Origin: Candidatus Desulfaltia sp. | Lineage (GTDB): Bacteria; Desulfobacterota; Desulfobacteria; Desulfobacterales; ETH-SRB1 | DNA length: 33,201 nucleotides | NCBI GenBank assembly: GCA_030656555.1 | Contig: JAUSPN010000068.1 | Span: 1-33,201, forward strand | Reading direction: 5' to 3' | Part shown: positions 322 to 21,565 of the stretch, in pieces | Layout of the letters: every line of letters begins with the position of its first letter | How positions within the stretch are numbered: position 1 is the first letter of the stretch | The notes under the pieces: generated by a model | The model's database searches: none | What the model was told of the DNA's origin: nothing | The model's input: the letters and a program-made list of their open reading frames with translations, nothing else | Program-made: the position numbers and the translations under genes

Positions 322-1530
322 TTATTTCATATCCCTTCCACGCACCTTTTTCATAATAACATAAAATAGAGCTGTTGCAACATACCTTACGACCTCACAT
401 ATACGAAACAGATAATATGATTCCCTGAACTCTAAATTCTTATTATACCACCTCTGAATCAGGATATGCGGCGGTGGAAAAAATGTTCTGAATAAAAACC
501 GGCACTTATTAATAAAACCCCTATTCAATGCCAGGTAAATCAGATAACTGCTGCCCTTAATCCTATTGTTGGAAAGTTGAAGAGAAAGGAAAAATCTCTC
601 CCCAATAGTAATATGCAATGGCCGCAAGCTATTTATAACCTTATCCGGAATCCTTAAAGAGGAATAATCTCTAACAATGGTTAAGCTAAAATGCAACAAC
701 CTTGACAGGTTAAAATCCCGGCTTTCTCTAATGATAAAGTCCCAGTCAACGCTTTTTTCATAGGTTTTTATGGATTGAAAGATATCATAAATCAGTATCA
801 ACCGATCAAAAGAATGGCCTATCCTCAAGGCATGTTCACAAAGATAGATTATCAGGTGGCTGGGAGAGAGTATGCGGGACTCAACATCGGCGATCATAGC
901 AGGAACCGACATTTTCCATATCCGCTCCATATCTATCTGCGGAGCAAACATATATGCCGGAACCGAGGTATTCACCAGATGCCAGTGAATATGGATTGAC
1001 AGCGAGGACATATCCCTTCGATAATCAAGACTGGCCAGATATCCCACCGGATTATTAACAGCCCTGGCCGCTGAGCTGTCTCTGGGAAAACATCCAAAAG
1101 AGGACAGGCAGCTATCGACCTTTTGAAGGCTATCTTTTTTTACCAGTATATCTATGTCGGACATCCCTCTCATAGCGATACCCGGATAAATATGTTCTGC
1201 CAGGGCAACCCCTTTAAGCATGATGAACGGTATTCCCTCATCTTTGAATCTGCCAAGTATCTCCTTTAATTCGCCCAGCGCAGACATATTCTTCATCAGG
1301 TTTGAATTATACTGTTTCTGCAAATACCGACAGGTTTCAGCAGGCATCATCTCTTTAAGATTGTTTTTTTTTATTTCGCAGAAAAGCACGCCCGCAACAC
1401 CCTCGCTTATTGCGGTCTCAACAATATAATCCCAATCCGGAGAACCAGGGGAAAATTGTGATAATGTATCCCTGCAAGCCTCTCCGAAAAGGAGTTTGAG
1501 CAACAACCTGTCCTCTCTTTTCCAGGCCAT
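322..1530 (-). CDS. Nucleotidyltransferase-fold protein (PF14907-like)
   Basis: This 402-residue protein looks like the uncharacterised nucleotidyltransferase family often annotated as NTP_transf_5. The visible signature is LKG at residues 105-107, then a Tyr, then RGMSDIDILV at 121-130, where Asp125 and Asp127 are the expected metal-binding acidic pair of a polymerase-beta-type fold. The rest is mainly helical and has no signal peptide. Members often occur beside HPrK-like kinases, PqqD-like proteins and polysaccharide or peptide-modification genes, which fits this place. The gene is divergent from the PqqD-like gene at 1666, with 135 bases between them. The ATG at 1528-1530 has an AGGG-type ribosome site. 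The substrate is unknown and the role in the neighbouring locus is inferred from position only. Confidence 0.75.
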   Translation of the reverse strand: MAWKREDRLLLKLLFGEACRDTLSQFSPGSPDWDYIVETAISEGVAGVLFCEIKKNNLKEMMPAETCRYLQKQYNSNLMKNMSALGELKEILGRFKDEGIPFIMLKGVALAEHIYPGIAMRGMSDIDILVKKDSLQKVDSCLSSFGCFPRDSSAARAVNNPVGYLASLDYRRDMSSLSIHIHWHLVNTSVPAYMFAPQIDMERIWKMSVPAMIADVESRILSPSHLIIYLCEHALRIGHSFDRLILIYDIFQSIKTYEKSVDWDFIIRESRDFNLSRLLHFSLTIVRDYSSLRIPDKVINSLRPLHITIGERFFLSLQLSNNRIKGSSYLIYLALNRGFINKCRFLFRTFFPPPHILIQRWYNKNLEFRESYYLFRICEVVRYVATALFYVIMKKVRGRDMK

Positions 1531-1665: not shown

Positions 1666-1980
1666 ATGAAAATCATATTAAAAAATAATGATTATTTGAT
1701 GCAAGACCTTGAAAGCATATTCAGGAAAGAAGAGGATGGGGCATTTCTCTTTGATCCCAAAAGCGGCAATCTAAAATACATAAACTGCATGGGAGTCAAT
1801 ATTTACCAACTATGCAGCGGCAACAGATCCGTCGCAGATATCACATCACTAATTGCAGAAAATTATAGAGATATCCCTGAAAGACAGATAAAAGAGGATA
1901 TCAAAAATTTTCTTCAAGACCTTATTGAAATGAAATTTGTAACTATTCAGCCACAGATTCACACAGATAAACGCAGATAG
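1666..1980 (+). CDS. PqqD-like peptide-binding protein (104 aa)
   Basis: A small PqqD-family protein. In RiPP pathways such proteins bind the precursor leader and present it to a radical SAM enzyme. The family pattern is visible: a beta-rich stretch at about residues 26-42 (FLFDPKSGNLKYIN), the 'N..G..IYQLC' helix start at 43-50, then helices at 55-90 ending in a 'DLIEMKFV' type segment. It is the first gene of a plus-strand run and is followed after 183 bases of repeat-rich DNA by a radical SAM/SPASM gene. Its last 13 codons (Val92 to the stop) coincide with the start of an intergenic repeat at 1939, so the C-terminal tail (VTIQPQIHTDKRR) was probably acquired from repeat DNA. It may correspond to ScmD of the SynChlorMet cassette, an assignment made from memory. 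Confidence 0.8.
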   Translation: MKIILKNNDYLMQDLESIFRKEEDGAFLFDPKSGNLKYINCMGVNIYQLCSGNRSVADITSLIAENYRDIPERQIKEDIKNFLQDLIEMKFVTIQPQIHTDKRR

Positions 1981-3260: not shown

Positions 3261-4325
3261 ATGGTTAGATTTTCCGATATCATCAAGAACAACTTAACTA
3301 AAAAACAAAAGGCCGAAAAATCCGAGAAAGCTGAAAAGCAATCCAGTTCTTTCCGTCTTAGCGATTTAGAAGAGCTCAGGTTATCAAGAGACTCGAAACC
3401 CGCACCTATAAAGGCCGCGGTTCCAAAACCTAAAAAAGAAACTGAAGAAATCAGGAAAATTTACTTAAGCTTCCAAACCTATATCAATGAAGTCAGAACA
3501 AGTATTTTAGATAACAAATCCTTCAAGATCGACTCCGTCCTCATTCTAATCAATAAAATCATTAATACACCGGATATGATCAACGAGCTTTATCAGTCAT
3601 CCATCCATTTCAGTCATAAAGAAGACTACGCCATTTCCAGATCAATCAACACCCTTGTATACGCACTCAAAATCGGCCAGGGCTTGGAATATTCAAAAGC
3701 GCAGCTTCTTGAACTGGGATTAGCCGCACTGCTTTATGATGTAGGAATGTTTAAAATTCCCGAAAGTATAATCAAAAAAAATGGGGAATTAACCGGATCC
3801 GAGGTAACTCTCATAAGGAAACACCCTGAAATTGGAAGAGATATCTTATCGGCATTCAAAGAAAATTATCCATGGCTTTCCCGGGTGGCGTACGAACACC
3901 ATGAAAGGGAAAATGGCCAGGGCTATCCACGTGGGATTAAGGGAGACGAAATCTGCGAATATGCAAAGATAACAGGTATGGTTGATACTTACGAAGCCAT
4001 GATTCATAGCCGTCCACATAGAAAGGCAATAACACAGCATGTCTCGGTTAAAGAATTGATATGGTCAAAAAATCTTATGTTTTCACCAAAAATAATCAAA
4101 GTATTTATTAAAAAAATATCCATTTACCCGATAGGAAGCTATGTAAGACTCAACAACAGGGCCGTAGGCATGGTCATACACACTAATGAAGAAAATCCCA
4201 TAAAGCCGGCCGTCAAACTGCTTTTTAACGGCAAGGGAAAGGCTGTGACCGAAGAGATAATAATAAAGTTGAGTGAAAACCCTCTCCTTTGTATTACAGA
4301 GACCATTTCCATAGATGAAATTTGA
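3261..4325 (+). CDS. HD-GYP domain protein with degenerate HD motif
   Basis: A 354-residue protein with a charged, low-complexity N-terminus (residues 1-65) and an HD-GYP-type domain at about 120-285. HD-GYP proteins normally hydrolyse cyclic di-GMP. Retained features are IPESIIKKNGELT at 166-178, H188, HHE at 213-215 and GYP at 221-223. The HD pair reads YD (Tyr159-Asp160, in LLYDVGM), and the upstream ligand His of the usual 'HSINV' segment reads Arg127 (SRSIN). Loss of two metal-ligand histidines argues for a regulatory or scaffolding role rather than hydrolysis. It starts 11 bases after the radical SAM gene with AAGG upstream, so the two are co-transcribed. Its stop codon is 6 bases before a repeat element. 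Confidence 0.85.
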   Translation: MVRFSDIIKNNLTKKQKAEKSEKAEKQSSSFRLSDLEELRLSRDSKPAPIKAAVPKPKKETEEIRKIYLSFQTYINEVRTSILDNKSFKIDSVLILINKIINTPDMINELYQSSIHFSHKEDYAISRSINTLVYALKIGQGLEYSKAQLLELGLAALLYDVGMFKIPESIIKKNGELTGSEVTLIRKHPEIGRDILSAFKENYPWLSRVAYEHHERENGQGYPRGIKGDEICEYAKITGMVDTYEAMIHSRPHRKAITQHVSVKELIWSKNLMFSPKIIKVFIKKISIYPIGSYVRLNNRAVGMVIHTNEENPIKPAVKLLFNGKGKAVTEEIIIKLSENPLLCITETISIDEI

Positions 4326-4331
4326 CAAAAC

Positions 4332-4512
4332 AAGTGCCTAAAGTGAGCTAAAGTGCCTAAAATGCCTAAAGTTAAGGTATTCTGCCTATTTTAAAGTAAC
4401 AAATGGCAAATGAGCTGAGGTTTCCTAAATTTTGCTATTTATAATATAAAATCAGTTAGCGCTGGCAAGCGCGTTCCTTAACTTTAGGCACTTTAGCTCA
4501 CTTTAGGCACTT
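4332..4512. repeat. Inverted repeat pair built of 9-10 base units, copy 1
   Basis: The left arm at 4332-4377 is made of units such as AAGTGCCTA and AAGTGAGCTA and ends in GTTAAGG. The right arm at 4476-4512 is its exact reverse complement, except that the left arm carries one extra 9-base unit (ATGCCTAAA). A small GC hairpin (GCGC, six-base loop, GCGC) abuts the right arm at about 4460-4473. The element fills most of the 220-base gap between the HD-GYP gene and the HPrK-like gene. It contains no credible reading frame. A second copy lies at 17751-18029. Confidence 0.85.
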
Positions 4513-4545: not shown

Positions 4546-5319
4546 ATGAAGGATGCCCTAAGTTTGGTAGAATTTACTCTCTCAATAGCAAAGACATCGA
4601 TTGCAGTTACTCTGGAAAAATCCCCGGAACAGATCGGAGCAGACCTGAGAAAGCTTTATGCCGGTTTTCTGAGCAATCAGATGAAAACCGACGCCTGCAT
4701 AAGAATATCCTGTGATAATCTTACAACTTACTGTGAATCAAAAGATGGCCCGATCAGACTTCCTGTTACTTTCAAAAGCCAAAACTACGGCTTTTCTGTG
4801 GCATCTGTTTACAAATCTCTCTTTCTCTATATTTCTCTTATCCTTGCAGAACAAAAAAAACTGCTCATTCATGGCGCCGGTATAAAGAAGAAAGATAGCG
4901 GATATCTTTTTCTGGGAGAATCAGGAGCAGGGAAAACCACAATAGCCGGTTCTGCGAAAAGAGATGATATTTTCTCAGATGACAGTCCTGTTATTGGAAG
5001 GGAAGACAACCTCTTCTATATCTATCCTTCCCCATACAGCCAGGTTGACATGTTTGGACCAAAAAGAGATGATCATTACCTGAAAAAAACAGAGCTGATA
5101 AAACTATTCTTTCTAAAGAAGAATGATAAACTGTTCATAAAGCCAAGGGATAGGAGGTCAGCTCTTGCGGAAATTATAAAAAAACATATACACTCTTTTG
5201 AATTTATGGGAAGCAAAAGCAGAATAGCCGCTTTTGACCTCTGCTATGATCTGTGCAACAGCATACCGATCTACGATCTACATTTTCAAAAGAATGATAA
5301 ATTCCGGGATATTATTTAA
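4546..5319 (+). CDS. HPr-kinase-like P-loop protein (ScmC-like)
   Basis: A 257-residue protein related to the C-terminal domain of HPr kinase/phosphorylase. Visible motifs are LIHGAG at 107-112, the Walker A GESGAGKT at 124-131 and a DDSPV segment at 145-149 in the place of the HprK metal-binding acidic residues. The usual N-terminal HprK domain is absent. Such small HprK-like proteins recur in peptide-modification cassettes, and their substrate there is not established. I assign it by recollection to ScmC of the SynChlorMet cassette. It is the last gene of the plus-strand run, separated from the HD-GYP gene by a repeat. Its stop codon lies 4 bases from the stop codon of the convergent Cys-rich peptide gene. 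The ATG at 4546 has no clear ribosome site. Confidence 0.8.
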   Translation: MKDALSLVEFTLSIAKTSIAVTLEKSPEQIGADLRKLYAGFLSNQMKTDACIRISCDNLTTYCESKDGPIRLPVTFKSQNYGFSVASVYKSLFLYISLILAEQKKLLIHGAGIKKKDSGYLFLGESGAGKTTIAGSAKRDDIFSDDSPVIGREDNLFYIYPSPYSQVDMFGPKRDDHYLKKTELIKLFFLKKNDKLFIKPRDRRSALAEIIKKHIHSFEFMGSKSRIAAFDLCYDLCNSIPIYDLHFQKNDKFRDII

Positions 5320-5323
5320 GCGC

Positions 5324-5593
5324 CTATTTTTGCGGCACACTCCCGGATTTGCATTTTGCGCCGGCAACACTGCCGTTCCTGCAAAAACCCCCGTATGCAA
5401 CGCTTCCAGCCTGGCATTTCTTCTGTGGGGAACCACCTGCCCGGCATTCCGCAGACGCAGCAGCGCCGCCGGCCTGGCACTGCCCTCCTGGAACACTTCC
5501 TGTTCTACAATGTTCGGCGGCATAAGCAACTCCTCCGCCCAGATCCAGGATTTTAGGCGACTCATAGGGAAACTTGAATTTGGTTGCAGTCAT
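5324..5593 (-). CDS. Cys/Gly-rich repeat peptide, likely RiPP precursor
   Basis: An 89-residue protein that appears to be the substrate of the surrounding modification genes. Residues 1-28 form a leader-like segment (SPKILDLGGGVAYAAEH at 12-28). Residues 29-89 carry six units CxxG(S/G): CRTGS, CQAGG, CRAGG, CQAGS, CRNGS and CKSGS. The Cys are at 29, 39, 50, 60, 71 and 81, so the spacing is 10,11,10,11,10 and three 21-residue double units result. The core is otherwise Gly, Ala, Ser, Gln and Lys, with hardly any bulky residues. The gene has a good ribosome site (GGAG, 7 bases before ATG) and starts 15 bases after the stop of the radical SAM gene at 5609. Regular Cys plus paired SPASM enzymes suggest thioether crosslinking of the ranthipeptide/sactipeptide kind. 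That chemistry is inferred. A metal-binding small protein is the main alternative. Confidence 0.85.
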   Translation of the reverse strand: MTATKFKFPYESPKILDLGGGVAYAAEHCRTGSVPGGQCQAGGAAASAECRAGGSPQKKCQAGSVAYGGFCRNGSVAGAKCKSGSVPQK

Positions 5594-5608
5594 CTTTTTT
5601 CTCCATGT

Positions 5609-6748
5609 TTATGGAACGATTTCGTAACTATTCAGCCTATCTACCTGAGCAGTTACACGATTCCTATCATAAGGAAACCCTTTATCTCTAAAAATCCTGT
5701 AACAGGACATGGGGTCCGGCTTAACTACTGAACCCGAAAGGTAATAAGATACAGCGGGGCAGCCGCCGACACAGAATGATTTATACATACAGCCGTTACA
5801 CTCCTCAATATCATTTAAGGATACGGACGACCTCATTCTCATATCATGAAAAACCCGTGACAATTGCCATATTTCCTTAAAATCGGTCTCTCTGATATTG
5901 CCGGCCTTAAAATCCCACAACCTGTCACAGGGAACGACCCAGCCATCAGACCTGACAGTACACTTTTCTATTCCTCCGCCACAACCCAAAAGCCCATTTG
6001 CAGCGTCAGGGCAATCTGTAGCATATTCTCTTTCCAGATTTTCAAAACCTTCAAAAAAATCACCCATCTCCAGAATCATCCCTGTAACGAAATTCCCATA
6101 TTGATCTCTTAATCTCTTGATGTCTTTTGTCACTTCTCTTCTTTGATGATTGGAAAGTGTAAGTTTATTTAAATGCAGGGCTGCATTCCCAAGCGGTAGA
6201 ATCTCATTGAATTTTACAGACTCCAGGCCAAGACTTTTACCCAGACTGATGATGTTTTCTATATCTTTGTAATTGTCCCTGGTAACCGTGGTATAAGTCG
6301 AGACATTTCCATTATATTTCAGAAGATTTTTTATTCCATCTATAACGCCTTCAAAACTGCCTTTACCTCTCAACTTTTCATGAATTTCGGCAGTGGAACC
6401 GTCGAGACTTACAAAAATGCTGTAGAGTTTTTCCAGCTCTGAAATCTGTTTTGACTTTTCTTCATCTATCAGCATCCCGTTTGTATTCAAACCATAGCGA
6501 AAATGATGTTTTTCAATCTCCCCGAAAATAGCAAATATATCTTTTCTCATAAATGGCTCGCCGCCGCTAATCCAAAGAGTAAACACCTTTAGCTCCGCAA
6601 GCCTTCTTATGAATTTTATCCACTCATCTCCTGTCAAATCCGTCCTGGAATTGCGCAAAGAAAAAACATTGCAGTGCCTGCAGGCCAGATTGCACCGGCT
6701 TGTTACAGCTATGAATACATCCAGGGGAGCGGACAGGGATTCCACCAT
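5609..6748 (-). CDS. Radical SAM/SPASM peptide-modifying enzyme, module 2
   Basis: A 379-residue radical SAM enzyme. The cluster motif CNLACRHC is at Cys19, Cys23 and Cys26, GGEPFMRKDI follows at about 61-70, and a Cys-rich SPASM region starts at about residue 245 (CPD, CGGG, KCTV, PCD, then EC-GC-FC-GGC and a final SCY). The family modifies peptides through auxiliary iron-sulfur clusters. It is preceded by a PqqD-like gene (40 bases) and followed by the Cys-rich precursor gene (15 bases), the standard order of a maturase with its substrate. A strong AGGAGG site supports the ATG at 6746-6748. The last codons (residues 365-375, VTAQVDRLNSY) are encoded by a 33-base palindromic repeat, so the C-terminal tail is repeat-derived. 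It may be ScmE of the SynChlorMet cassette, by recollection. Confidence 0.92.
   Translation of the reverse strand: MVESLSAPLDVFIAVTSRCNLACRHCNVFSLRNSRTDLTGDEWIKFIRRLAELKVFTLWISGGEPFMRKDIFAIFGEIEKHHFRYGLNTNGMLIDEEKSKQISELEKLYSIFVSLDGSTAEIHEKLRGKGSFEGVIDGIKNLLKYNGNVSTYTTVTRDNYKDIENIISLGKSLGLESVKFNEILPLGNAALHLNKLTLSNHQRREVTKDIKRLRDQYGNFVTGMILEMGDFFEGFENLEREYATDCPDAANGLLGCGGGIEKCTVRSDGWVVPCDRLWDFKAGNIRETDFKEIWQLSRVFHDMRMRSSVSLNDIEECNGCMYKSFCVGGCPAVSYYLSGSVVKPDPMSCYRIFRDKGFPYDRNRVTAQVDRLNSYEIVP
5624..5656. repeat. 33-base palindromic element inside a gene end
   Basis: The arms GTAACTATTCAG and CTGAGCAGTTAC pair over 12 positions with two mismatches around a nine-base centre. The first 14 bases (GTAACTATTCAGCC) equal those at 1939-1952 and nearly equal the inverted arm at 2118-2133. 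The element lies in frame within the last codons of the radical SAM gene. A related word (ATCCACCTGAGTAGTT) occurs near 32424. Confidence 0.75.
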
Positions 6749-6788: not shown

Positions 6789-7190
6789 TTACACAACAAT
6801 CAACCCTTTTCTTCTAAAGGAACTCAGCGTCAAAACAACGTCCCTCATGCAAACATCTCTTTCTACATCAAAATCATTTGTAATCTTATCGACTATATCC
6901 TCTGTGCTCTTTTCCCCGTTGCAGCAATTCCAGATAACCGCAGCCGTATCGTTCAACCTCAGTATATCCTTGTTGGCGCCAGCATCAGCAAGAAGAGTGC
7001 AGCCGCCATCTTTTCTGCACGAAATATCAGGATTTTTCACCGGAAATGCTCCCAATATCTCTTTTATCTCAGTCCATCTATACAGCGCTTTGAGATTTTC
7101 ATAAATATTAGAAAAAAATGGAGCTATGCCCGGCAGCGCCAAACCGGCTCCAAACACCATAGACATAAAATTCCTTCTTGATCTTATCAT
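6789..7190 (-). CDS. PqqD-like protein with twin-arginine-like N-terminus
   Basis: A 133-residue protein in two parts. Residues 1-26 read as a twin-arginine signal or anchor: SRRNFM at 4-9 followed by an uncharged stretch MVFGAGLALPGIAPFF. Residues 60-133 are PqqD-like (GCTLLADAGANKDILRLNDTAAVIWNCC, then helices ending in FRRKGLIVV). A PqqD domain normally binds precursor leaders in the cytoplasm, so an export-type N-terminus is unexpected. It may act as a membrane anchor. Five Cys are present (58, 64, 89, 90, 114). The gene overlaps the ATPase gene by ATGA and precedes the radical SAM gene by 40 bases, so it belongs to the minus-strand operon. The start is supported by AAGGG upstream. An internal start at Met9 or Met11 would remove the signal. 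Confidence 0.8.
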   Translation of the reverse strand: MIRSRRNFMSMVFGAGLALPGIAPFFSNIYENLKALYRWTEIKEILGAFPVKNPDISCRKDGGCTLLADAGANKDILRLNDTAAVIWNCCNGEKSTEDIVDKITNDFDVERDVCMRDVVLTLSSFRRKGLIVV

Positions 7191-7981
7191 GATAAATCCC
7201 TTATAACCTCTTTTATAATATTGGAATCGATAACTTTTTTCTTTGAACTAAACCCTATTAACAGGCTCATATCACAGACATTGTTGATCTTTCTCGGAAC
7301 CCCTTGCGAATAATCATATATTTGATCTACAGCCTGACGGGTGAATATACCTCTTGTCAAGCCGGCCTTTTTCAAGCGAAAATTGATATATTTTACTGTG
7401 CCTTCAAAGCTAAGGGGGTTTAAATGATACTTGATGGCAATCCTCTGATCAAGCTGTTCAATGCCTTTTACAATATCCCTCAACTCCGGCTGGCCAATAA
7501 GAATGAGCGTCAGCAGGAACCTATCGTTTAACTGAAAGTTTAAAAGCAGGCGTATCTCCTCAAAGGTCTGTTTGGAAATTAACTGCGCTTCATCTATTAT
7601 CAGCAGAGTTGTCTTATCCTGCTTCACATTCTCCAGCATTCTTTCATTCAAGACGTCCAGAAGATCAGCTTTTGAATTTGTATCGGGATTCAGGCCGAGC
7701 TGATAGAGTATCTCTTTTAAAAAATCTGAAGGCTCAAGCGTTGGATTGGTTATTAATCCTATATCATACTCATCATCCGGAAGCTGTTGGATAAAGACCT
7801 TGCTCAAAACAGTCTTTCCACAACCCACATCCCCGGTAAGAAGGGCAGCGCCTTTCTTTCTTTTTGCCGCATAGATAAGCCGGACCAGAGCCTCCTCGTG
7901 CTTCTCCGAGTAGTACATAAAATCCGGATCCGGAACATTCTCAAAGGGAAATCTTTTAAGACCCCAGTATTCTAAATACAT
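7187..7981 (-). CDS. ExeA-type AAA ATPase
   Basis: A 264-residue P-loop ATPase of the ExeA/GspA kind (AAA_22), which often accompanies secretion, exosortase or exopolysaccharide loci. The N-terminus MYLEYWGLKRFPFENVPDPDF is the family signature. Walker A GDVGCGKT is at about residues 50-57 and Walker B LLIIDEAQ at about 126-133, with a sensor-like LILIGQPELRD later. No transmembrane helix or peptidoglycan-binding domain follows, so only the ATPase core is present. It overlaps the phosphatase gene by 10 bases and the PqqD-like gene by 4, so translation is probably coupled. In this operon it could energise membrane delivery or release of the modified peptide. That job is inferred from context. 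Confidence 0.88.
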   Translation of the reverse strand: MYLEYWGLKRFPFENVPDPDFMYYSEKHEEALVRLIYAAKRKKGAALLTGDVGCGKTVLSKVFIQQLPDDEYDIGLITNPTLEPSDFLKEILYQLGLNPDTNSKADLLDVLNERMLENVKQDKTTLLIIDEAQLISKQTFEEIRLLLNFQLNDRFLLTLILIGQPELRDIVKGIEQLDQRIAIKYHLNPLSFEGTVKYINFRLKKAGLTRGIFTRQAVDQIYDYSQGVPRKINNVCDMSLLIGFSSKKKVIDSNIIKEVIRDLS

Positions 7982-8436
7982 TTTATCAATCCCTCAAGAG
8001 CAAGGTATATCTCGGCAAAGCAAAGCCTGTAATGATAACCGGATAGATTGTGTGGATCCCTTATCCCCTTCATGTCTGCAGTATTTAAATAAGAGGCGCC
8101 CTTTGAAAAAGGTTTTAAGAGAAAGACCTTTCCTTGTGTGTCAGGATAACTTTCAATGATAGAATCTTTATGATGTTGCTCCATAACAACAATCATATCT
8201 GCATCAGTGGCAATATCCTCGGTCAAAAGTTTCGAAAAATGGCCGTCGGCTTCAAAACCCATTTCTTTCAGAATCTTCACCGCAACAGGGTCGGCGGACT
8301 TCCCGTCCATATCAAAAATGGCGGCTGAGGAAACTTCGATGTCGCTTCTGTTATTTTCTTTTAGCGCCTTCTTGAACATCCGCTCTGCTGCAAAACTTCG
8401 AACTATATTAGCCATACAAACAAATATTATTTTCAT
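7972..8436 (-). CDS. Low-molecular-weight protein phosphatase family
   Basis: A 154-residue protein of the low-molecular-weight phosphotyrosine phosphatase / arsenate reductase fold. The catalytic loop is at the N-terminus, Cys7-Met-Ala-Asn-Ile-Val-Arg13-Ser, the C(X)5R-S arrangement, with Ala in place of the usual Gly. The general acid Asp-Pro is seen in IRDPHN near residue 126. Family members remove phosphate from Tyr or Arg residues, often opposite a kinase in exopolysaccharide control. It is the first gene of the minus-strand operon that ends with the Cys-rich peptide, and an AAAAGG site precedes the ATG. Pairing with the HPrK-like protein at 4546 as an opposing kinase and phosphatase is possible but is inference. 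Confidence 0.87.
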   Translation of the reverse strand: MKIIFVCMANIVRSFAAERMFKKALKENNRSDIEVSSAAIFDMDGKSADPVAVKILKEMGFEADGHFSKLLTEDIATDADMIVVMEQHHKDSIIESYPDTQGKVFLLKPFSKGASYLNTADMKGIRDPHNLSGYHYRLCFAEIYLALEGLIKCI

Positions 8437-20296: not shown

Positions 20297-21565
20297 CTAC
20301 TCGTCGAGTTTAAAAAGTTTACGGGTAATATCAAGGTATACGGATTTATCCCCATGACAACCATTCGTTTTTAAAACAAGGGTTGGATCATGCAAAATTT
20401 TGTTTATCAGTGCATCTGTCATCCTGTAGATGGCCTGACAATCGGTATCTGTCAAGTGGTTTAAAGTTTGCAGCGTTTTCTTTGTCTCTGTTTTTGCGAT
20501 GGCATCCATTTTATCCCTCAACGCAACAATTGTAGGCACAGCATCCAGACTTTCATACCATTGCCGAAACCGGATTACAGCCTCATCAACGATTCTTTCA
20601 CCTTTGCAGGCCTCTTTATTACGATCACCGATGTTTTCATCAATAACTCCTTTTAAATCATCAATGTCATAAACATAGGAATTGTTAAGATCGTTGATTT
20701 CAGGGTCAATATCACGCGGGACAGCTATATCGATAAAAAAAATAGGGCGATTTCGCCTGCTGCGCATGACCCCCTTGACCTGGTTGCGCTTGATAATGAA
20801 ATCGGGCGAGCCGGTTGAACTTATTATAATATCCACCGTTTCTAAACAATCTGTAATCTCCTCAAACCGTATTGCCTTGCCGTTGAAATTTTTTGCCAGT
20901 TCAACACAACGTTCAAAGGTTCTGTTTGCGACAATAATATCACCTGCTCTGTTTCTAATTAAATGCTCAACCGCGAGCTCCGCCATTTCACCAGCTCCGA
21001 TAAGGAGAACTTTTTTGCCTTCAAGGCTGCCGAATATTTTCCGTCCAAGCTCGATCGCCGCATAACTTATTGATACTGCATGATCGCCTATTCCTGTTTC
21101 AGTTCGAACACGTTTTGCCACAAAAAAGCTTCTGTGCAACAATCTGTTAAGAATGACGCCTGATGTTTTTTTCGAGGTGGCTGTAAGATATGCCTCCTTT
21201 ATCTGCCCTAGAATCTGAGGTTCTCCAACCATCATTGAATCCAGGCTTGATGCAACCCTGAAAATATGGCGCACAGCCTCATCGCCATCATGGATGTAAA
21301 GAACATCTTCAAAAACGGCAACCGGAATATTCTTAAATTCTGAAATAAACATCTTGGCGGCGTTCAAAGCATCTGAACGGTTGTCTGTCGCTAATAGAAT
21401 CTCAACACGATTACACGTTGAAAAAAGTACAGACTCGATAATTGCTGGATCCTTTTGAAAAGTTTCCAGAGCAACAGCAACCTCATCTTTAGAAAAAGCA
21501 AGGCGCTCCCTGAGTTCAACCGGAGCTGTTTTATGATTTAATCCAAGTAGTATAATATCAAGCAT
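20297..21565 (-). CDS. hemA: Glutamyl-tRNA reductase
   Basis: A 422-residue enzyme that reduces glutamyl-tRNA to glutamate-1-semialdehyde, the first committed step of tetrapyrrole synthesis by the C5 route. The N-terminal GLNHKTAPVELRERLAF, the catalytic Cys in STCNRVEI, the region MVGEPQILGQIKEAY and the NADPH-binding GAGEMAELAVEHL are all present, followed by a C-terminal dimerisation helix. It lies after a CcsA-like gene and a siroheme-synthesis gene, an order common in sulfate reducers and Geobacter relatives, which need both siroheme and c-type cytochromes. Confidence 0.97.
   Translation of the reverse strand: MLDIILLGLNHKTAPVELRERLAFSKDEVAVALETFQKDPAIIESVLFSTCNRVEILLATDNRSDALNAAKMFISEFKNIPVAVFEDVLYIHDGDEAVRHIFRVASSLDSMMVGEPQILGQIKEAYLTATSKKTSGVILNRLLHRSFFVAKRVRTETGIGDHAVSISYAAIELGRKIFGSLEGKKVLLIGAGEMAELAVEHLIRNRAGDIIVANRTFERCVELAKNFNGKAIRFEEITDCLETVDIIISSTGSPDFIIKRNQVKGVMRSRRNRPIFFIDIAVPRDIDPEINDLNNSYVYDIDDLKGVIDENIGDRNKEACKGERIVDEAVIRFRQWYESLDAVPTIVALRDKMDAIAKTETKKTLQTLNHLTDTDCQAIYRMTDALINKILHDPTLVLKTNGCHGDKSVYLDITRKLFKLDE

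Follow-up and report, generated by a model that had tools for sequence, protein, structure and literature searches.

Beside a gene for a radical SAM/SPASM enzyme in Candidatus Desulfaltia sp., a short open reading frame encodes a peptide of repeated Cys-Gly units. The question raised by this locus is whether the peptide is the substrate of the enzymes around it and, if so, how it would be modified, trimmed and exported. The window, which is the whole stretch of DNA analysed, comprises 33,201 nucleotides of contig JAUSPN010000068.1. A sequence-only reading had proposed that the peptide is the substrate of a two-enzyme radical SAM system and the undefined precursor of the SynChlorMet cassette. 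The features of the locus are given in Table 1.

Re-reading of the 89-residue product returned the Cys positions exactly as described before (29, 39, 50, 60, 71 and 81, with spacings of 10, 11, 10, 11 and 10). All six units have the form CxxG[SG] (CRTGS, CQAGG, CRAGG, CQAGS, CRNGS and CKSGS). The position directly after the SPASM enzyme gene was also correct, with a gap of 15 nt between the stop of that gene and the precursor gene, which has its own ribosome site. One regularity was absent from the earlier description: Ala or Pro stands at +6 after the Cys in 6/6 units. The 61-residue core was shuffled 200,000 times. Gly at +3 after all six Cys occurred in a fraction of 2.5e-5 of the shuffles, and Ala/Pro at +6 after all six in 1e-5. 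Spacings of 10 and 11 only, and both motifs jointly, occurred in 0 of 200,000.

Table 1. Features of the window at the precursor gene and around it (position 1 is the first letter of the window).
Feature	Position	Strand	Evidence
ScmA-like precursor, 89 aa	5327..5593 (stop 5324-5326)	minus	TIGR04252 1.1e-6, 28.7 bits (cut-off 35); homologs beside ScmE/ScmF
Ribosome-binding site GGAG	5601..5604	minus	7 nt upstream of precursor ATG
YESP, [YW]xxP leader motif, residues 10-13, I15 at Y+5	5555..5566	minus	Register of 50 precursors
AYA, residues 23-25, candidate leader cleavage site of the Tat branch	5519..5527	minus	[AV][YH]A in branch precursors
Core, six CxxGxx[A/P] units	5327..5509	minus	Unit starts 5509, 5479, 5446, 5416, 5383, 5353
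ScmE-like radical SAM/SPASM enzyme, 379 aa	5609..6748	minus	TIGR04250 6.5e-72, 242 bits (cut-off 400); CNLACRHC and full SPASM motif
PqqD-domain protein with N-terminal twin-arginine-type signal (MIRSRRNFMSMVFGAGLALPG)	6789..7190	minus	PF05402 5.7e-15, residues 74-131
Second PqqD-family protein, ScmD-like, without RRxF signal	1666..1980	plus	TIGR04248 1.4e-11, 44 bits (cut-off 100)
ScmF-like radical SAM/SPASM enzyme, 361 aa	2164..3249	plus	TIGR04251 1e-98, 331 bits (cut-off 400)
HprK-like kinase, P-loop GESGAGKT, in place of ScmC	4546..5319	plus	HprK_rel_A 2.6e-5
NTP_transf_5 nucleotidyltransferase, recurrent cassette neighbour	322..1530	minus	PF14907 8.4e-48
LMW phosphotyrosine phosphatase, neighbour, not proven part	7972..8436	minus	PF01451
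XrtA/PEP-CTERM-type ATPase, neighbour, not proven part	7187..7981	minus	TIGR03015 2e-73, below its cut-off
HD-domain protein, neighbour, not proven part	3261..4325	plus	PF13487; in 6/34 loci clustered

The best NCBIfam models of four window proteins were ScmA, ScmD, ScmE and ScmF of SynChlorMet (TIGR04248-TIGR04252: ScmA, C, D, E, F). TIGR04252 (SCM_precur_ScmA) was the sole NCBIfam match of the precursor at E up to 1. All four proteins scored below the curated cut-offs, and ScmC (cut-off 125 bits) had no match at E up to 1 among the window proteins. By these model scores, therefore, the cassette is a divergent relative of SynChlorMet and not a member by the curated rules. In L041, from a relative whose genome belongs to the same family, ScmC, D, E and F all score over their cut-offs. 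The window does encode a precursor with a [YW]xxP leader and CxxGxx[A/P] repeats, accompanied by PqqD and a pair of SPASM enzymes. We call loci of this kind SynChlorMet-like, a wider group defined in this analysis and not a curated NCBIfam rule. The parts are of the same kinds as in SynChlorMet; the differences are that one PqqD carries a Tat signal and that the leader ends in A[YH]A, and unlike most SynChlorMet-like loci the window is without the signal-peptidase-like protease and the ABC exporter. The homologs of the HprK-like kinase adjoin ScmA in relatives.

The earlier suggestion that this peptide fills a gap left by an undefined SynChlorMet precursor had to be given up, as TIGR04252 already defines one. 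The ScmA family is thus named, and neither its characterisation nor a paper using the word SynChlorMet was found in the literature searched. The TIGR04252 model is narrow, because only 8 of 24 precursors (the first-round set below) matched it at E up to 0.1. It was rejected as a genome search probe: 15/94 genomes matched at E 0.1, none over the cut-off, and two controls matched too.

Nucleotide repeats were also seen in the locus. A perfect 30-nt inverted repeat lies between the HD and HprK-like genes (arms 4332-4361 and 4483-4512, 121 nt apart), with arms made of AAAGTG/CCTAAA repeats. A 17-nt repeat, TTTGTAACTATTCAGCC, occurs towards the 3′ end of the ScmD-like gene (1936-1952) and again towards that of the ScmE-like gene (5621-5637), the two being 94% alike; the former copy recurs, inverted and imperfect, at 2088-2133.

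A peptide search of genome contigs returned the congener as the only relative (L034, contig JASEIZ010000041.1, a Desulfobacterales MAG), and its copy has five Cys instead of six. Homologs were also sought through the enzymes. First-round loci (32) were collected from ScmE homologs in 94 relatives and ScmF homologs in 389 genomes of the order; ScmE homologs were found in 15/94 and ScmF in 30/389. In 22 of the 32 loci a screen for Cys repeats picked up precursors, 23 in number besides the window's own, and one more was found by eye (L051). L034 and L035 are one contig (12,875 bases) and were counted once. The screen found no precursor in nine first-round loci (L037, L038, L040, L043, L045, L046, L047, L063 and L065), several of which stop at a contig end; L046 and L047 are without ScmF as well. 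With L107, L109 and L113, the ScmF-bearing loci without a precursor number ten.

A search model comprising the leader and three units matched 25/389 genomes, all of them among the 30 ScmF-positive ones; shared genome handles indicate that this search and the ScmF search covered one and the same set of 389. The model was built from 23 of these 25 genomes, so the positive matches are largely circular. The absence of any match from the 359 ScmF-negative genomes is not circular. Independent evidence came from 24 further ScmF loci, drawn from 22 genomes in the phylum: 21 had a precursor at E <0.001 (26 precursors). The two-enzyme RiPP system is hence recurrent, occurring in 30/389 genomes of the order and in 24/395 sampled from the phylum. 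The homologs beside similar enzymes that the earlier reading called for were found in this way, and together with the TIGR04252 match they bear out its view of the peptide as a substrate-type partner of a two-SPASM radical SAM system.

ScmE and ScmF appear from their distribution to be a pair. Of six genomes checked, five had ScmE, and the sixth is 73% complete. Two different ScmF cassettes stand face to face in L059 (1-9218, genome G365) with no local ScmE, and each has its own precursor, PqqD, kinase and peptidase. That ScmF acts without ScmE was considered and found no support, as G365 encodes ScmE on another contig (412 bits).

The first 24 precursors (the window's included) and the 26 new ones gave a set of 50; L051, found by eye only, was left out of these 50. 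In 115 inner units of the first 24 precursors, Gly was at +3 in 105 (mean of 2000 shuffles 28, maximum 44) and Ala/Pro at +6 in 90 (shuffled mean 25.6, maximum 40). The 26 new precursors gave Gly at +3 in 105/118 units and Ala/Pro at +6 in 77/110 inner units. Gly at +6 was found in 0/115 and 2/110 inner units of the two sets, and in 7/22 terminal units of the first. Pro was at +6 in 20/135 units. Twelve units over both sets have the form CxxxG, with Ala/Pro at +7 in ten of them and at +6 in one. Since Ala/Pro shifts to +7 together with the Gly, G-x-x-[A/P] is a fixed block, and the Cys stands 3 or 4 residues before Gly.

The strict 10/11 alternation is exact in the window peptide, and this part of the earlier reading stood. 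Neither the alternation nor the 21-residue double unit held as a family rule: among the 115 inner units of 24 precursors, 81 are 10 or 11 residues long, two are 1 and 3, and the rest are 9 to 18, in irregular order. When the register was anchored on [YW]xx[PS], Pro was at Y+3 in 49/50 precursors and Leu, Val or Ile at +5 in 43/50; a free alignment of 24 precursors also showed this Pro (P13 in the window) to be invariant. The alignments thus point to a refined substrate rule, a [YW]xxP leader followed by C-x2(3)-G-x-x-[A/P] units. One precursor, of 220 aa (L044 6013-6675), has seven Cys units followed by a tail of >100 residues in which Ser, Gly, Pro, Lys and Glu abound.

The window and congener (L034) copies of the precursor were compared. 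The dN/dS was 0.27, and the dS was 0.49 against 0.09-0.20 for seven neighbouring genes. This silent divergence, 2.4 to 5.7 times that of the seven neighbours, suggests repeat turnover or recombination. The congener precursor (L034 2681-2944) is without unit 1, and DDDD runs are found in its place and at its C-terminus. Several overlapping frames are open in the same stretch of the window, as would be the case if the precursor were a spurious GC-rich antisense ORF; the ribosome site and the dN/dS speak against this, and the conserved homologs have already refuted it, so that its probability is negligible. Judged by these comparisons, the precursor gene is genuine, is kept by purifying selection and changes faster than its enzymes. 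A second alternative is that the peptide stays unmodified, as a thiol, metal-binding or disulfide protein whose place next to the enzymes is incidental. Its evenly spaced Cys amid Gly, Ala and Ser would suit such a protein, but there is no precursor match in the 359 ScmF-negative genomes, an RRE-type leader is present in 49/50 precursors, and the position rules around the Cys are tighter than metal binding needs. We consider it improbable. The peptide is, on the present sequence evidence, very probably the precursor of the ScmE/ScmF-like pair.

Both enzymes contain CxxxCxxC and a full SPASM cysteine set. A sactipeptide (S to C-alpha) or ranthipeptide (S to C-beta/C-gamma) bond made by them would be putative. 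The nearest solved relatives by sequence are 5wgg and SkfB (6efn) for the ScmE-like enzyme and SkfB for the ScmF-like enzyme. The structure 5wgg ('Radical SAM domain protein') is one that we take to be a SCIFF-type thioether enzyme. E-values of 1e-11 to 1e-16 to solved SPASM structures are, as sequence comparisons, of little information on chemistry. To our knowledge, streptosactin is the closest known precedent for CxxG. It has unnested i to i+3 alpha-carbon thioethers, Cys25-Ser28 and Cys31-Gly34 (PMC8172795). Streptosactin and sactipeptides (GggB) resemble the window by a Cys with Gly or Ser at +3 and by a SPASM enzyme (PMC8172795). Unlike streptosactin, which has two units, the window has many, with two enzymes, separate PqqD proteins and a second constrained position at +6. 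Related mining work lists other repeat precursors, none with CxxG units in the text of its section 4 (PMC9062424).

We propose that, in all likelihood, the leader would be bound by the PqqD proteins, and that ScmE and ScmF would meanwhile act repeatedly on the units. The modification is probably a thioether from each Cys. As its most likely form we tentatively put forward an unnested ring of the streptosactin kind, closed on the alpha carbon of Gly+3; Ala/Pro at +6 would then be a requirement of recognition or of the second enzyme. Another reading is a ranthipeptide-type or other link from Cys to a side-chain carbon, for example that of residue +6, or a thioether made by one enzyme and a different change, such as epimerisation at +6, made by the other. 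It would explain why +6 is a second constrained position from which Gly is nearly excluded in inner units. It would also give work to two different SPASM enzymes, and 5wgg, the nearest solved relative of ScmE, is presumably a thioether enzyme of the SCIFF type. However, the Pro at +6 and the Gly at +6 of terminal units are awkward for an acceptor, and Gly+3 is more invariant than +6, so we regard the side-chain link as possible and rather unlikely. The kinase and the nucleotidyltransferase may act at a later step, adding a mark as their counterparts do in lasso systems (PMC9266682).

The comparison with lasso peptides also concerns the leader. The lasso leader motif YxxPxL, at -17, -14 and -12, is recognised by B1 (PqqD-type) proteins (PMC10368454). 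The window has YESPKI, with Ile for Leu, and a PqqD-type partner, and binding is predicted. The profile of the Tat-signal PqqDs had the lasso leader-binding proteins TfuB1 (6.1e-7) and TbiB1 as its best solved relatives in the PDB. The lasso peptides paeninodin, pseudomycoidin and BsfA likewise have a YxxPxL leader read by a PqqD-type B1, and a kinase and a nucleotidyltransferase likewise occur in lasso clusters (PMC10368454, PMC9266682). Unlike lasso systems, the window has a Cys-Gly repeat core and SPASM enzymes, and no lasso cyclase (asparagine-synthetase type) was found among the 10 window proteins scanned. The known lasso kinase target is a C-terminal Ser (PMC9266682); the same target was rejected here, as the window peptide ends in SVPQK. 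Gly is at Y+16 in 23/40 ordinary precursors, and a cut there would therefore fall in the lasso register.

Neighbouring proteins were clustered over 34 loci, which yielded an ABC exporter of ~600 aa and a signal-peptidase-like protein. The protease was present in 30 of the 37 ordinary precursor-bearing loci (L051 included) and the exporter in 19; among the 27 loci of at least 9 kb, a limit set after short loci were seen, the counts were 26 and 17. SMxP was found in 29/31 signal-peptidase-like proteins (two have SMxG) and a downstream HR in 31/31. We take this to be the pattern of Ser/His-type signal peptidases. The L050 peptidase, which was scanned, scored 54 bits to TIGR02228 (cut-off 51.85, passed) and 39 bits to TIGR02754, below the cut-off; archaeal-type signal peptidase I and the Ni-SOD maturation protease are thus its nearest models. 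The cassette peptidases differ from both types, as they adjoin a RiPP precursor and as 16 of 20 checked (of 31) have no 19-residue stretch reaching a mean hydropathy of 1.7; they therefore look soluble. In ordinary cassettes the leader would probably be cut by this Ser/His protease, a good leader-peptidase candidate, with ABC export often to follow.

The signal-peptidase-like domain is fused to NTP_transf_5 in L114 (8196-9743) and L036 (13525-15399), and the fusion may couple the removal of the leader to nucleotidyl transfer. Cassettes were also observed amid polysaccharide export genes. A Wzz/kinase-type family was found in 9/34 and an SLBB export family in 8/34 of the loci clustered, both named by Pfam on the L041 and L044 representatives. 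Such surroundings are seen in L034 (8146-12199), in the flanks of L041, L044, L064 and L116, and in others; two ORFs beside the nucleotidyltransferase of L034 look alike by eye. The mature peptide may be part of the extracellular matrix.

The cassette of the window is of a second kind, in which a PqqD protein bears a twin-arginine signal. Seven loci of this Tat branch were counted (the window, the congener, L039, L044, L062, L101 and L116), and L114, with two cassettes, was set aside. Within the stretches at hand, the protease was found in 0/7 and the ABC exporter in 0/7 of them. A looser peptidase pattern matched only the window ORF 20297-21565 in these seven loci, which was judged a chance match. 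RRxF within the first 80 residues was found in 7/66 PqqD-family ORFs of the loci, all of the Tat branch (L114 included), and the eighth Tat-branch PqqD (L116) has RRSLFK in its place. R5, R6 and F8 are invariant in the five Tat-PqqDs found first, which outside the congener share 21-26% identity with that of the window. A profile of them gave a full-length match in 389 genomes only in those five; the other matches listed begin at model position 28 or later and lie in or near the PqqD domain. The protein at 6789-7190 has RRxF, a moderately hydrophobic stretch and TatC encoded in its genome, and is a candidate Tat substrate.

The precursors of the Tat branch differ as well. The register table showed [AV][YH]A at Y+13 to Y+15 in 10/10 Tat-branch precursors vs 0/40 others (Fisher 4e-9, on the 9/10 Tat precursors caught by the regular expression). 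TatC was found in 7/8 Tat-branch genomes and was not found in the fragmented congener genome G003. The cassette peptidase had no match in 6/8 Tat-branch genomes, including that of the window, in a search with one query at E 0.001, which a divergent copy could escape; the matches were in G421, with its second cassette, and in G003 (weak, 27 bits). Both ordinary genomes searched matched at 7e-42 or better. A whole-genome search for a displaced ABC exporter was set aside, since each of the 10 genomes, also the two ordinary ones, had generic exporters.

In the ScmF tree, from which L063 was left out, the Tat trait needs two changes, one for a clade of seven (98/80) and one for L101. Locus counts therefore overstate the Tat/peptidase evidence; an independent-pairs sign test had two pairs only (p 0.5) and could not reach significance. 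The ScmE tree placed the window's enzyme apart from those of its Tat relatives L039 and L044, so that the branch is one of ScmF and the Tat module, not of ScmE. The ScmE and ScmF of L101 are over the SynChlorMet cut-offs. L101 matters because its enzymes are ordinary and yet accompanied by the Tat protein and A[YH]A.

We speculate that the leader-binding protein (RRE) gained a twin-arginine signal and might ferry the cross-linked, folded precursor over the inner membrane by Tat hitch-hiking, replacing the Ser/His peptidase and the ABC exporter. The modified peptide would cross the Tat pore as a passenger of the Tat-signal PqqD, and a housekeeping signal peptidase would then cut at A[YH]A; we hold this sequence of steps to be conceivable and doubtful. 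We lean slightly towards another explanation, that the RR signal is a membrane tether or decoy and that the peptide leaves the cell through an ordinary transporter whose gene lies elsewhere, or is not exported at all. The generic ABC exporters of all 10 genomes searched would serve it, the trait rests on just two evolutionary events, and no paper bringing together PqqD, twin-arginine and radical SAM was found in the literature searched. A tether or decoy fits less well with the missing peptidase matches of six Tat-branch genomes (one query, E 0.001) beside the clear matches of both ordinary ones, with the [AV][YH]A carried by the 10 precursors of this branch, and with the TatC of 7/8 Tat-branch genomes.

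The 50 aligned precursors provide a sharp and directly testable substrate rule, C-x2/3-G-x-x-A/P, and ordinary systems gain a candidate leader peptidase. The exchanged export module is new in this analysis, lies outside the stretch covered by the sequence-only reading, and is the most interesting part. It amounts to a natural experiment, in which the peptidase and the exporter are jointly absent where a Tat-tagged leader-binding protein is present. If Tat hitch-hiking is true, it would be a new export route for a modified peptide (RiPP) by an exported RRE, and it would offer a means of directing cross-linked peptides into the periplasm.
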